Source: Syntrophobacterales bacterium
GTDB taxonomy: Bacteria > Desulfobacterota > Syntrophia > Syntrophales > UBA2192
DNA length: 38,539 nucleotides
Assembly (NCBI GenBank): GCA_018053845.1
Contig: JAGPKU010000018.1
Coordinates: 1-38,539, forward strand
Reading direction: 5' to 3'
This document shows positions 1,193 to 24,754 of this stretch, one piece after another; position 1 is the first letter of the stretch, and each line of letters begins with the position of its first letter. Both the position numbers and the translations under genes were made by a program. Below the pieces are notes generated by a model that was not told the origin of the DNA, made no database searches, and worked only from the letters and a program-made list of their open reading frames with translations.

Positions 1193-3892
1193 CTATCTCA
1201 CGCTGACCCTTCGGAGCTGGTCGAAGTCGGTCAGGCCCTTCATCGCCTTCTTGATTCCGTCCTGCAGGAGCAGGACCATGCCCTCGGAGACGGCCTTCTC
1301 CCGCACCTCGGCGGCGGTCCCCCGCTTCTGGATGATCCTCTTGATGGGCTCCGTGGCCACCAGGACCTCGTGGATGGCCACCCTTCCCCAGTAGCCCGTT
1401 CCGCCGCAGGCGTCGCAGCCCTGCGACCGGTAGAGCTTCAGCTGTTCCCGCGCCGAGACTCCCAGGGTCGCCGCGATGAATTCCTCTCCGCAGGCCCGCT
1501 GGATTTTCCGGAATTCGATCTCCGTGGGGACGTAGGACTCGCGGCATCGCTGGCAGAGGCTCCGCACGAGACGCTGAGAGACGATGCCGATGAGGGAGTC
1601 GCCGAAGTGGAAGGGGTCGAGCCCCATGTCCAGCAGGCGGACGACCGTTTCCGGCGCGTCGTTGGTGTGGAGCGTGCTGAGGACCAGGTGCCCCGTGAGG
1701 GAGGCTTCCGTGCCGATCCTGGCCGTTTCCGGGTCTCTCATCTCGCCGACCATGATGATGTCGGGGTCGGAGCGGAGGAAGGAGCGCATCGCCGCCGCGA
1801 AGTCGAGCCCGATCTTCCGGTTCACCTGGACCTGCCGGATGCCCGGCTGGCTGATCTCGATGGGGTCCTCGATCGTGATGATCTTGAGGGCCGGCCGCTT
1901 GATCTGCTCAATCAGGGCGTGCAGCGTCGTCGTCTTGCCGGAGCCCGTCGGCCCCACGCAGAGGATGAGCCCGTGGGGCTTCTCGGACATCGCCAGCAGG
2001 TGCTCGTAGTTCAGCGGATCGAGATGGACGTCCTCGAGCCGCAGAAGCTCCCCCGTGGCCAGCAGGCGCAGCATGGCGTCCTCGAGGCCCCCGATGGGCA
2101 GCGTGGCGACGCGCAGCTCGATCGTCTCGCCGTTGTAGCAGCGGAACTTGATCTTGCCGTCTTGCGGCAGCCGCTTCTCGGTGATGTCCATGCCCGCCAT
2201 GATCTTGATCCGCGAGACCAGGGCCGTCCGGTAGTTGAACGGGAGCGCCTCGTAGGGGGCCAGGTCCCCGTCGATGCGGAACCGGATGTCCACGCGCCTC
2301 TCCCGCGGGTTGGGCTCGATATGGATGTCGGAGGCGCGTCGGCGGAACGCCTCGTTGATGATCTTGTTCATGATCTGCGGGACGATGTTGTCCGTCTCGG
2401 TGATCTCCGGCTCGTCGTCCACGGGCCCGGACTCGTCGGGGGTCCCCTTCTCGATCATGTCGCGCAGTTCGACCTCCCCGCCCATCTTGCTGTAGAAGTG
2501 GTGGATGAACTTGAAGATGTCCTCTTTCTCGGCGGGGCGGAAGTCCACGGCCTTCGTCTTGAGAATCGCCTGGATCTCGTCGCGCCGGATGAGGTCGTCG
2601 AGGGTGTCGATGAGCACGACGATCCGGTTTCCCGCCGTCTCGAGGGGGCACCAGCGCTCCCGGATGAGGTAGTCCTTGTTCAGGTTCTTGAGGAGGTCCT
2701 TCGGGGCGGGAAGGCCCGCCAGGAACTTGACGCGGATCTTCGCCCGGATGCTGTCGGGCAGGGTGTCCCGTGTGACGGCGCTGCCCGCTGTCTTCGTCAC
2801 CATCTCCTTCACGACGGCTTCCAGCTCGGGGATGTTGCCGGGGAAATCGTAGTCGCACAGGGTGCTCATGGCGTCCTGCGCCACGGCGAGATCGCGGCCG
2901 CCGGCATAGGCGCTCACGAAGTGTTCGACCAGCGGGGGGATGTCGCTCTTGCGCTCCTTGAGCGCCGGAAGGATCAACGTCGATCCCTTGACGAAATAGT
3001 ACAGGTCCTTCCTCAGTTCGCCCTTGCCGACCAGCGCCTCGGGGTCGAGCCTCGTCGAGATGATGATCCGGGTGTCGAGGGGGCACTTCTCGTTCGTGCC
3101 GGGGCGGGTGTAGCCGTTCTCCTGCATTGCCTTGAGCAGCATCGCCTGCACGTCCGAGGGCAGGTAGCTGATCTCGTCGAGGAACAGGGTGCCCTTGCGG
3201 GCCTCGTCGATGTGCCCGCCGCCGGTTTCACTCCCGAACAGGGCCGCAAGGTGCCGATCCCCCGTGAGCGCTTCCAGGTCCAGGACCACAAAGGGCCCGG
3301 ACTTCCGGGATCCCGAATCGTGGATGTGGCGCGCGATGGTTTCCTTTCCCGTTCCCTTCTGTCCCGTGACCAGCATCGGGACCGTGATGGAGGCGTAGAG
3401 CTCGGCCTCCTTGAGAAGCCGGAGCATCTTGTCCGACCGGGCGATCAGGGCCGGGGGGATCCTGTTCGGGGCGATCTCGGGCTGGGCCTCGCTCTTGACG
3501 ACGGCGATGACATCCAGGAGCCGCTTGCGCTCCAGGGCGCGGTGGATCGCGGCGACCATGTCGTCGCGGTTGACGGGCTTGGTGAGGTAGTCGTAGGCGC
3601 CTTTCTTGAGGCAATCCACGGCGACCTTCGCCTCGTTGGTAGCGGAGACCATGAGGCACTCCGTGCTCGGGATCGTGTTCTTGATGTGCTCGAGGAGTTG
3701 CAGCCCGTCCATCCATGGCATGTTGATGTCCAGGAGGGCGATGTCGAACTGGTCCCCGTTTGCCACGGCGGCGGCGGCGTTTCGCGGGTCGCTCTCGAGC
3801 CGGAGGTTCTTGAAGCCCGCCCCGATCAGGCCGCGGCGCACGCTGTCGAGATAGTCCTGTTCGTCGTCGACAATGAGTATGGCGTTCTGCAT
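1193..3892 (-). CDS. Response regulator / degenerate sigma54-type AAA+ / GspE-PilB family fusion ATPase
   Basis: This 899-residue protein has three parts. Residues 1-120 form a CheY-like receiver with acidic D9/D10, phosphoacceptor D55 in IALLDINMP and K105 in LTKP. Residues about 145-370 resemble an NtrC-type AAA+ domain: Walker A-like GQKGTGKE at 177-184, Walker B GTLFLDEIS at 234-242, and DLYYF and YDFPGNIPELE as in the family. The GAFTGA loop that contacts sigma54 is deleted, and no Fis-type HTH follows. Residues about 480-899 are a secretion/pilus ATPase: SDIHIEP, Walker A GPTGSGKTTTLHA near 650, Asp box ITIEDPIE, Walker B-like VGEMRDPETA, His box STLHTNDAPE, and a zinc tetracysteine (CQRC near 782, CDAC near 826). 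AAGGAG lies 8 bases before ATG. No pilin, GspF or GspD genes are nearby, so it is an orphan motor, possibly switched by phosphorylation. Confidence 0.9.
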   Translation of the reverse strand: MQNAILIVDDEQDYLDSVRRGLIGAGFKNLRLESDPRNAAAAVANGDQFDIALLDINMPWMDGLQLLEHIKNTIPSTECLMVSATNEAKVAVDCLKKGAYDYLTKPVNRDDMVAAIHRALERKRLLDVIAVVKSEAQPEIAPNRIPPALIARSDKMLRLLKEAELYASITVPMLVTGQKGTGKETIARHIHDSGSRKSGPFVVLDLEALTGDRHLAALFGSETGGGHIDEARKGTLFLDEISYLPSDVQAMLLKAMQENGYTRPGTNEKCPLDTRIIISTRLDPEALVGKGELRKDLYYFVKGSTLILPALKERKSDIPPLVEHFVSAYAGGRDLAVAQDAMSTLCDYDFPGNIPELEAVVKEMVTKTAGSAVTRDTLPDSIRAKIRVKFLAGLPAPKDLLKNLNKDYLIRERWCPLETAGNRIVVLIDTLDDLIRRDEIQAILKTKAVDFRPAEKEDIFKFIHHFYSKMGGEVELRDMIEKGTPDESGPVDDEPEITETDNIVPQIMNKIINEAFRRRASDIHIEPNPRERRVDIRFRIDGDLAPYEALPFNYRTALVSRIKIMAGMDITEKRLPQDGKIKFRCYNGETIELRVATLPIGGLEDAMLRLLATGELLRLEDVHLDPLNYEHLLAMSEKPHGLILCVGPTGSGKTTTLHALIEQIKRPALKIITIEDPIEISQPGIRQVQVNRKIGLDFAAAMRSFLRSDPDIIMVGEMRDPETARIGTEASLTGHLVLSTLHTNDAPETVVRLLDMGLDPFHFGDSLIGIVSQRLVRSLCQRCRESYVPTEIEFRKIQRACGEEFIAATLGVSAREQLKLYRSQGCDACGGTGYWGRVAIHEVLVATEPIKRIIQKRGTAAEVREKAVSEGMVLLLQDGIKKAMKGLTDFDQLRRVSVR

Positions 3893-4033
3893 GGAAAGAC
3901 TCCTTGCGCGTCGAGGGTTGCTGTCTGATGGCCACCGTCTTGTCCCGATGCGCCGGGAACGTTCGTCAACCGGGAGGACTGGAGGGGTTTCACCGCGTTT
4001 CCCCGATGGTTATGCCTCTCCGCTGTGACGATT

Positions 4034-4049
4034 TGCAAAAGTCAAACCA
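4034..4049 (-). promoter_or_regulatory. Candidate sigma54 (-24/-12) promoter for the fusion ATPase
   Basis: Read on the minus strand this is TGGTTTGACTTTTGCA. GG and GC are separated by exactly 10 bases, with the TGG and TTGCA flanks expected for RpoN sites; the CACG part of the -24 element is not conserved. Transcription would start near 4022, giving a leader of about 130 bases to the ATG at 3892. It is a match by eye only. Confidence 0.5.
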
Positions 4050-4116
4050 CATTGCCCGCAGTCAGTGACAACAAGGTTTCGATCCGGAAGGGGTTTATTG
4101 CGCGGGAGAGAGCGGG

Positions 4117-4839
4117 TCAGGATAGGGGTCCGGGCTCGACGGCCCACTCGTGGATGACGAGGTCGATGAGGACGGGCCACCGGGAAGGGGTTCCGTCTTG
4201 CCTTCTCGGGGTCACGATCCGGTGGGACGGGTAGGGGATGCCGTTCCAGGTGGCGTGCTCCTCGACGACATGGGCTGCCCCGGGCCCAGCCCCCGATGAC
4301 CTCGGCCGTGTAGTTGGGCTGCTTCAGAAGGCCCGTGGAAGGGTCGAGCAGGAATTCCTGCACGGGGCAGTGCGTCGGGATGCCCGCGGGAAATTCGGCG
4401 ACGATCCGGCTCCGGCCCGCTTCCTGCCAGCGGATGTCCTCCCGCAGCAGGAGCGCCGGGAAGCAGAGGTAATTCCACAGGGCATAGCCCGCAAAATAGG
4501 GCTGGTCCAGGCTGTCCCACCGGAAGAGGCGCCTGCCGCCGGGGAAGAAGGCGCGGACGTTTTCCCTGCGGGCGATCTCGCGGCCCGGGGCTTCTCGAGA
4601 AAGACGTCGCCGCCACTCAGGATACCCGTCGTGCCGTTGGGATTCACGGGTGCTATGCGGGTCAGGGGCCTTCGGGCGTCGCACTCCACGGCGACCCGCC
4701 GGAAAGGCTTCTGCCGCTTGAGGACGAAGGCAAGCCCGGCCGTCGAGACGGTTGCCCGGACGGTGAGGGCAACCCGCCAGAAGGTCTCGCCTCCGTAAGC
4801 GTCCAGCGCTCGCTGCAGGGTGTCGGGCCTTTCGTTCAT
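4117..4839 (-). pseudogene. Conserved protein of unknown function, broken by two frameshifts
   Basis: Three reading frames join into one protein of about 240 residues. It starts at the ATG at 4839 (MNERPDTLQRALDAYGG...), continues in a second frame with FAGYALWNY, FPAGIPTHCPVQEF and the start of the YTAEVIGGWAR segment, and ends in a third frame with AAHVVEEHATWNGIPYPSHR and VLIDLVIHEW before TGA at 4117-4119. The first shift needs one extra base in the C/G run near 4583-4590. The second needs one base fewer in the four-base C run near 4278-4281. The motifs resemble proteins of unknown function of about 250 residues that I associate with actinobacteria; I know no function. Both breaks lie in homopolymers, so sequencing or assembly error is as likely as true decay. 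Confidence 0.65.
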
Positions 4840-6140: not shown

Positions 6141-11426
<5,286 letters not shown>

Positions 11427-23680: not shown

Positions 23681-24196
23681 ATGGCCGGGACGGAGATGAG
23701 CATCTTCGATTTCGCGGTGAAGGCGGAGCGAGACGGCATCGGGTTCTACACCAGGGCGGCGAAAAAGTTCAAGGAAACGGATCTCCGGGAACTCTTCATG
23801 AAGCTCGCCAAGGAAGAGGTGAGGCACATGGAGACCTTCCTCGGGATCAAGGAAAAGGCGGAAAAGAAGGGGGCCGACCAGATCTTCCGCTCCGATCGGG
23901 TCAGCGACTACCTCGACACGATCGTCCGCGGGGGGCTCTTCCCGAAGGGCGACAGCATGGTCAAGAGGCTCGAGAGGGTGCACGACGTCGGCAGTGCCTG
24001 CGCCATCGCCATGGAGGCGGAAAAGAACGCCATCCTGCTGTACTCGGAGCTGGCGAAGCTCGCGAAGGACAGGGATCAGAAGAAGATCTTCGACGCCATC
24101 GCCAAGGAGGAGCGCTCCCACATCGTCATGGTGGGGACGGCGAGGGCCGACTACGACCCGACCTACGCGGCCCTGCGGTTCGGTCGGTTCTTCTGA
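23681..24196 (+). CDS. Rubrerythrin-like ferritin-family diiron protein, copy 1
   Basis: This 171-residue cytosolic four-helix-bundle protein has the diiron ligand pattern of rubrerythrins: E16, E46-x-x-H49, E112/E114 and E144-x-x-H147. No C-terminal rubredoxin CxxC pair is present, so it is a sulerythrin or erythrin-type member. Such proteins detoxify peroxide or handle iron in anaerobes. AAAGGAGG ends nine bases before the ATG, a strong ribosome site, which together with the promoter at 23584 suggests high expression. A paralogue of identical length follows after 42 bases, so this is a tandem duplication in one operon. Confidence 0.85.
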   Translation: MAGTEMSIFDFAVKAERDGIGFYTRAAKKFKETDLRELFMKLAKEEVRHMETFLGIKEKAEKKGADQIFRSDRVSDYLDTIVRGGLFPKGDSMVKRLERVHDVGSACAIAMEAEKNAILLYSELAKLAKDRDQKKIFDAIAKEERSHIVMVGTARADYDPTYAALRFGRFF

Positions 24197-24238
24197 TCCG
24201 GTCATGGAGAATCGGCATCCGGCACAGGGGGTTGCACG

Positions 24239-24754
24239 ATGGCAAAACGAGAGATCAGCGTGATCGACTATGCCGTGCGACAGGAGGAGCACGGGGTGAG
24301 TTTCTACACGAAGGCGGCGGAGAAGTTCCGCGGCACCGAGCTTGCGGGCCTGTTCATGAAGCTGGCCAAGGAAGAGGCGAAGCACCTCCGCGAGCTGATC
24401 GATCTCCAGAACGTCGCCCTCCGAAAAGGGGTCGAGGAGTGCTTCCGGGACGTGGAGGTCGATGCGTACCTCGATGCCGTCATCCGGGAGGGCCTGCTTC
24501 CCGGGGGCGACCGGGCGGAGGATCGGCTCGAACAGGTCAAGAGCGTGGAGGACGCCTGCCGCATCGCCATGCAGGCCGAAAAGAACGCCGTCCTCCTTTA
24601 CATGGAGCTGGCGAAGCGCTCGAAGGACAAGGGGCAGAAGAAGATTCTCGAGGCCATGATCCGGGAGGAGAAGGCGCACATGGCGAAGATCGCGGGCATG
24701 AGGGCCGACATCGACCCCCTGTACGCGGCGGAGCGCTTCGGGAAGCTCTGCTGA
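24239..24754 (+). CDS. Rubrerythrin-like ferritin-family diiron protein, copy 2
   Basis: This 171-residue paralogue of the preceding protein aligns without large gaps, keeps every putative iron ligand (E16, E46-x-x-H49, the EAEKNA-type helix as QAEKNAVLLY, EEKAH) and also lacks rubredoxin cysteines. It shares FYTKAA, LFMKLAKEE and AEKNA segments with copy 1 but differs at many surface positions, so the duplication is not recent. AGGGGG precedes the ATG. A terminator follows at 24785-24831. The two products may form a heteromer or serve different oxidative conditions; nothing here decides that. Confidence 0.85.
   Translation: MAKREISVIDYAVRQEEHGVSFYTKAAEKFRGTELAGLFMKLAKEEAKHLRELIDLQNVALRKGVEECFRDVEVDAYLDAVIREGLLPGGDRAEDRLEQVKSVEDACRIAMQAEKNAVLLYMELAKRSKDKGQKKILEAMIREEKAHMAKIAGMRADIDPLYAAERFGKLC

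Follow-up and report, generated by a model that had tools for sequence, protein, structure and literature searches.

A response regulator receiver and a degenerate sigma54-type AAA+ domain joined to a PilB/GspE-type motor in one genus of Syntrophales

INTRODUCTION

Response regulators usually act on DNA, on second-messenger enzymes or on chemotaxis targets. A 38,539-nt stretch of Syntrophobacterales DNA (contig JAGPKU010000018.1; hereafter the window, its genome being G000) contains a gene whose predicted product begins as an NtrC-like regulator and ends as a secretion or pilus ATPase. The question that this locus raises is whether such a protein is real and, if so, from which parts it was built and what a receiver could do on a pilus-type motor. 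In the systems described so far, control of PilB by two-component or c-di-GMP signals goes through separate partners (PMC11656802). A receiver and an MshEN domain in one protein are already on record, e.g. in Bd2402, although the available part of the source (PMC5013675) mentions no combination of a sigma54 AAA+ domain with T2SSE for such proteins. A search of the open-access literature found no description of a receiver-AAA-MshEN-T2SSE fusion.

RESULTS

A single gene with an identical junction in three assemblies

The fusion gene is an uninterrupted reading frame with an ATG start and a GC3 of 0.93 along its full length (Table 1). Five Pfam matches, all well over cut-off, follow one another in the product: Response_reg (residues 5-116, 2.6e-25), Sigma54_activat (149-302, 9.3e-37), AAA_lid_14 (312-385, 1.6e-17), MshEN (391-471, 1.7e-10, profile 8-88/90) and T2SSE (500-894, 8.6e-116). 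In phmmer searches against solved structures the N-terminal half matched NtrC-type regulators and the C-terminal half matched PilF, PilB and GspE. The initial annotation, made from the sequence alone, had proposed an NtrC-like regulator and a complete PilB/GspE motor in one protein, and this description holds: there is one ORF of 899 aa with the five domains in order. The concern that two genes had been run together by a missed stop was not borne out, as G006 and G007 show the same junction in independent assemblies. An assembly or frameshift artefact is thus ruled out by identity of the junction in three assemblies, and a sequencing artefact by the recurrence of the fusion, at 88% and 92% identity, in two sister species.

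The structure predicted for the full protein from an alignment of five sequences had a mean pLDDT of 53, and only its receiver and AAA core were usable (about 60-90; mostly 70-90 in the AAA core).

Table 1. Features of the fusion gene and its product (window coordinates)
Feature	Position	Strand	Basis
Whole fusion gene, 899 aa: REC, degenerate sigma54-type AAA+, lid, half MshEN, T2SSE (PilB/GspE) motor	1193..3892	-	Single ORF; Pfam; junction matched in G006 and G007
AAGGAG, Shine-Dalgarno-like, 8 nt 5' of the ATG	3900..3905	-	Sequence; motif also present in G006
Receiver, residues 1-122; D9/D10, D55, S83, K105 intact	3527..3892	-	Pfam PF00072; sequence
Codon of predicted phospho-acceptor D55	3728..3730	-	Sequence
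Sigma54-type AAA+ core, residues 146-302	2987..3457	-	Pfam PF00158/PF14532
AAA+ Walker A GQKGTGKE, residues 177-184, intact	3341..3364	-	Alignment to C92 paralogue
Site of 9-residue deletion removing GAFTGA loop, between residues 225 and 226	3215..3220	-	Alignment to C92 paralogue
AAA+ Walker B LFLDEI, residues 236-241, intact	3170..3187	-	Alignment to C92 paralogue
Sensor I ISTR, residues 278-281 (AATN in paralogue; Asn to Arg)	3050..3061	-	Alignment to C92 paralogue
Arginine-finger segment LRKDLYYF, residues 293-300 (FRKDLYYR in paralogue; second Arg to Phe)	2993..3016	-	Alignment to C92 paralogue
AAA+ lid, residues 303-388	2729..2986	-	Pfam PF25601
Sensor II GNIPEL, residues 352-357 (GNVREL in paralogue; Arg lost)	2822..2839	-	Alignment to C92 paralogue
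MshEN C-terminal half, residues 389-475; c-di-GMP motifs absent	2468..2728	-	Pfam PF05157; motif scan
T2SSE (PilB/GspE) ATPase motor, residues 500-894	1211..2395	-	Pfam PF00437 (8.6e-116); PilF/PilB/GspE structures
Motor Walker A GPTGSGKT, residues 647-654	1931..1954	-	Motif scan
Motor Walker B DPDIIMVGEMRD, residues 709-720	1733..1768	-	Motif scan
Motor His box GHLVLSTLHTND, residues 734-745	1658..1693	-	Motif scan
Zinc-binding C-x2-C ... C-x2-C module, residues 780-829	1406..1555	-	Motif scan

A complete receiver on an eroded AAA+ domain

All residues by which a response regulator is recognized are found in the receiver: the acidic pocket, the Asp, the Ser and the Lys. Two of them, D55 and K105, had been reported as intact, correctly so, and S83 is present as well.

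Aligned with a canonical receiver-AAA-HTH paralogue of the same genome (C92), the fusion reads LFGSETGG---------GHIDEARKGTLFLDEI; the nine missing residues include the GAFTGA loop. Pfam found no HTH in the fusion, the HTH_8 domain of the paralogue being replaced by MshEN-T2SSE. The deletion and the lack of an HTH match agree with the earlier proposal that the sigma54-contact loop and the DNA-binding domain had been lost. The damage goes further: when the residues required of a sigma54 enhancer-binding protein were checked, Walker A and B were kept, while sensor I no longer has its Asn, sensor II no longer its Arg, and one arginine finger is missing. In comparison with enhancer-binding proteins of the NtrC/NtrC1 type (PDB 4l4u, 1ny5, 5m7n), the fusion shares the receiver, linker helix, AAA+ core, lid and Walker A/B motifs but differs in having neither GAFTGA nor HTH and in its changed sensor I, arginine finger and sensor II. 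The AAA+ domain probably binds nucleotide and forms oligomers, with sigma54 remodelling lost and ATP hydrolysis weak or absent.

Could the protein still be a gene regulator, its receiver-AAA half, like HupR or TyrR, needing no GAFTGA to control transcription, with the motor as a passenger? Some regulators whose GAFTGA is defective do work with sigma70 (PMC3162934). However, the HTH is gone, three further AAA+ elements are changed, and the strongest constraint falls on the motor (see below); we consider such a role highly improbable.

An intact motor behind half of an MshEN domain

Only the C-terminal half of an MshEN domain lies between lid and motor. The two c-di-GMP motifs, of 24 residues each, were searched for in the relaxed form given in PMC5013675; they were not found in the fusion and were present in the C22 and C62 proteins described below. 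The motor is intact at Walker A, the Asp box, Walker B, the His box and the four-cysteine module. Its NCBIfam scores were 451 bits for GspE (cut-off 630) and 439 bits for PilB (cut-off 676), i.e. under both equivalog cut-offs, by which it is classed as a member of the PilB/GspE superfamily and not as a certified PilB or GspE. Relative to the PilB/GspE/MshE ATPases (TIGR02538, TIGR02533; PDB 6f8l, 5tsg, 4pht, 1p9r), the fusion shares the complete T2SSE motor and the MshEN-type linker half, whereas a receiver and an AAA+ domain replace the N-terminal MshEN half and the c-di-GMP motifs. Its most likely role would be that of an alternative PilB.

A second AAA-T2SSE fusion in the family

The same genome encodes a 982-aa protein with the order TM, sigma54-type AAA+, MshEN and T2SSE (L033:6198-9146, G000:C62). 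This type was present in 8/8 genomes of the family (the G007 copy being cut by a contig end) and, at the threshold used, nowhere else in the order. Within the genus its AAA+ domain has HQ for DE in Walker B and a changed sensor II; its motor is altered at Walker B and the His box, and its c-di-GMP MshEN motifs are kept. The protein resembles the PilB and TM-AAA genes of an Msh-like locus on C22 (motor identity 50%). Both fusions combine a sigma54-type AAA+ domain of eroded catalysis with a PilB-like domain, yet only the one in the window has a receiver. The C62 fusion is independent of, and older than, the receiver fusion. On two occasions, then, a sigma54-type AAA+ became joined to a PilB-like ATPase in this family; each time AAA+ catalysis was eroded, but the motors had opposite fates. 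This second fusion, the half MshEN and the AAA+ lesions beyond GAFTGA had not been raised in the initial annotation.

Both parents survive in the genome

The receiver-AAA half is nearest to the C92 regulator (46-48% identity; tree support 94/88, stem 0.95). The motor half is 56% identical over residues 390-898 to a GAF-MshEN-T2SSE ATPase on C157 and branches, on a long stem of 0.79 changes per column, in or beside the clade of such ATPases (support 100/100). The fusion has a receiver-AAA module where these ATPases have a GAF sensor. ATPases of this type (~780 aa; L031:8310-10658 and relatives) occur widely across the order, and they explain the strong matches seen in most of the 155 order genomes. 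The C92 regulator adjoins a multi-PAS histidine kinase gene and is about 5-7 kb from pilT in G005 and G006.

In G006 a gene for a REC-PAS-PAS-HisKA-HATPase kinase lies 26 nt upstream of the fusion on the same strand. Its product is 53% identical to the C92 kinase, with 37% for the next best among kinases of the loci read. Kinase and regulator are each closest to their C92 counterparts, which suggests that the two were duplicated jointly. No copy of this upstream kinase is left in the window genome; the fusion receiver there would be either orphaned or served by the C92 kinase.

A likely course of events is that a duplicate of the regulator, along with its histidine kinase, lost the HTH, and that a duplicated GAF-MshEN-T2SSE ATPase lost GAF and the N-terminal MshEN half, the second half becoming joined to the regulator. 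The fusion arose within one Syntrophales genus, and its steps are traceable because close relatives retain the two parents as well as a decayed copy.

A 100-aa MshEN-like protein is also encoded beside the C92 regulator (Pfam score 22.8 bits, just short of the 23.1-bit cut-off, and 23.2 bits in G006). Stand-alone genes of this kind were seen beside kinases related to that of the fusion (L032:15652-15954; L116:3771-4193; L115:7981-8280); they may encode a separate signalling partner of pilus ATPases.

Narrow distribution, decay and purifying selection

Three intact copies were found in seven genomes of the genus, with a pseudogene in a fourth. Among the eight family genomes the intact copies are those of the window, of G006 (88% identity, full length) and of G007 (92%, truncated where its contig ends). 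In G002 the conserved panE-DAO locus contains a remnant that has a stop codon and that has lost, through in-frame deletions, the AAA+ domain and the Walker A/B region of the motor; the fusion is absent from this locus in G003, G004 and G005. It was not found elsewhere among the 155 genomes of the order or in any of 395 sampled genomes of the phylum. A scan of genome contigs gave one extra match, to Syntrophales MAG contig L149 (isolate Prado119), with coordinates and length as in the G007 copy. None of the 528 plasmid records with a match covered 80% of the query, and scans of viral contigs yielded a single PilB-like locus, a distant one, with no receiver-AAA relative. The genome and plasmid searches detect relatives of the receiver-AAA-T2SSE fusion; an unrelated AAA-T2SSE fusion elsewhere could escape them. 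The suggestion that the protein might represent a class of signal-controlled assembly ATPases finds no support where a broad class is meant: the architecture is limited to one genus and decayed in one of its species, and a wide class of close forms is ruled out by the order, phylum and genome-contig searches.

Is the fusion, then, a non-functional or dispensable chimera that is being lost after short neutral retention? The pseudogene, the absence from three species and the loss of the kinase in the window genome would fit. We computed dN/dS by the Nei-Gojobori method between the three intact copies (dS about 0.3-0.5). The receiver gave 0.04-0.24 (the lowest values resting on 46 codons), the AAA core 0.15-0.23, the lid 0.27-0.52, the half MshEN 0.17-0.21 and the motor, the most constrained part, 0.09-0.10, with no indel between the copies. 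The lid values again fit a decaying accident; a neutral gene, however, would not show such low dN/dS elsewhere without indels, and we judge a decaying accident unlikely. At 0.10 the motor is as constrained as its GAF-type paralogue (0.104). Between G000 and G006 the receiver-AAA half has a dN/dS of 0.30, against 0.10 for the parent regulator, and is thus under looser constraint. The low values across three species show that the fusion is under purifying selection in every domain, less strictly in the AAA half.

Pilus and secretion genes

The initial annotation had stated that no pilus or secretion genes are adjacent. This is true of the annotated neighbours in the window but not of G006, where a pilin-like gene with an N_methyl motif lies 3.5 kb upstream of the fusion, between uvrA and the DAO gene (L076:5157-5534). 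The window has no such gene at that place; G002 has a homologue beside DAO (L126:5886-6221).

Other genes of the window deserve mention. Positions 6141-11426 encode a UvrA-like protein of 1761 aa within which the UvrA modules recur, with two UvrA interaction domains and a self-similarity of about 40-50%; this double UvrA is retained in sister species. Two overlapping ORFs (4010-4839), with no Pfam match, look like what a frameshift has left of a 243-aa protein that is still whole in G004 (L127:4866-5597). Two tandem 171-aa proteins (23681-24754), about 49-51% mutually identical, look rubrerythrin/ferritin-like by eye.

The search for pilM-Q or gsp genes elsewhere, as proposed earlier, was successful: pilM-Q, pilC and pilT are present in the genome, unlinked to the fusion, and a T2SS lies on C85 (GspE over its cut-off, GspD, GspF). 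The T4aP set is split over contigs, with pilM and its neighbours on C46 (PilN/O/P/Q assigned from position and size, not from profile), a solitary pilC on C70 and pilT on C134. The Msh-like pilus locus on C22 has PilM-like, PilQ, PilB, PilC and the TM-AAA regulator.

The genomes of G005 and G006 are each listed as 100% complete. Their full-length PilB-like ATPases are limited to GspE, the Msh-like PilB, the GAF type and the C62 fusion, with the receiver fusion in addition in G006. GspE and the Msh-like PilB have their own gspF/pilC; among the full-length candidates only the GAF ATPase and the receiver fusion combine an intact motor with the lack of a GspF neighbour. With the other PilB-like ATPases accounted for, and PilB being the best model for the GAF type (517 bits), the GAF ATPase is probably the T4aP PilB of the cell, and we infer that the receiver fusion is its regulated paralogue.

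A different relation between the two motors would be co-assembly: the fusion as an adaptor or dominant-negative subunit that modulates the GAF-type PilB by phosphorylation and drives no pili alone. Their 56% identity and the presence of both in every genome having the fusion would suit this, but the long stem that separates the motors speaks against it, and we regard it as very unlikely.

DISCUSSION

The reading that we prefer, to which we give about even chances, is that the fusion is a phosphorylation-gated alternative PilB in which the AAA+ domain is an oligomerisation relic and which drives an unlinked type IV pilus machine. A PAS histidine kinase would phosphorylate D55; this would change the oligomeric state of the receiver/AAA module, which in turn would license or position the C-terminal hexameric motor; the licensed motor would then drive the machine of PilM-Q and the solitary PilC. 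Phosphorylation is known to change the oligomeric state of NtrC1-type regulators. The sequences show the architecture, the motifs lost and kept, the origin, the distribution, the selection and the kinase next to the fusion in G006; phosphorylation, gating and a pilus rather than another output we infer. Gating is plausible, and it gains weight from the histidine kinase gene that immediately precedes the fusion in G006. Also in favour of a gated PilB are the intact motor motifs, under the same constraint as in the GAF-type paralogue, the intact receiver phospho-site and the location of the parent regulator near pilT in G005 and G006. Weighing against a gated PilB are the missing kinase in the window genome, the fact that three sister species lack the gene at the locus and a fourth has it as a pseudogene, the looser constraint on the receiver-AAA half than on the parent regulator, and the lack of a direct link between the fusion gene and pilC or pilM-Q.

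A bolder version would have the kinase switch the type IV pilus motor directly: the phosphorylated receiver would assemble a non-catalytic AAA+ ring, a clutch that templates the PilB hexamer, and the two independent AAA-PilB fusions, both with eroded AAA+ catalysis, would be separate uses of one trick. We consider this version rather unlikely.

The output of the motor may also be other than pilus extension. In Myxococcus xanthus the control that PilB exerts over EPS is separate from pilus assembly (PMC5544727), and the gene of the GAF-MshEN-T2SSE parent adjoins a polysaccharide-export cluster (Wzc, SLBB) in G000 and G001; the fusion might then chiefly signal or regulate EPS, with kinase input setting EPS or biofilm output. 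Yet the catalytic motifs of its motor are fully conserved, under constraint as in the parent, and no EPS genes were near the fusion in any genome seen; we judge this explanation unlikely.

The gated alternative PilB would resemble FimX-PilZ and PdeK-PdeR (PMC11656802) in that a kinase-fed pathway acts on a pilus motor; there the partners are separate proteins, whereas here the receiver is inside the motor polypeptide. If this is true, the receiver would couple signal and machine directly, the sensor kinase acting on the motor itself, and the fusion would lend itself naturally to studies of the switching of PilB hexamers. In the fusion, moreover, selection has retained an enhancer-binding AAA+ domain whose transcription function is lost, which makes it a good test of what such a ring can do apart from opening promoters.
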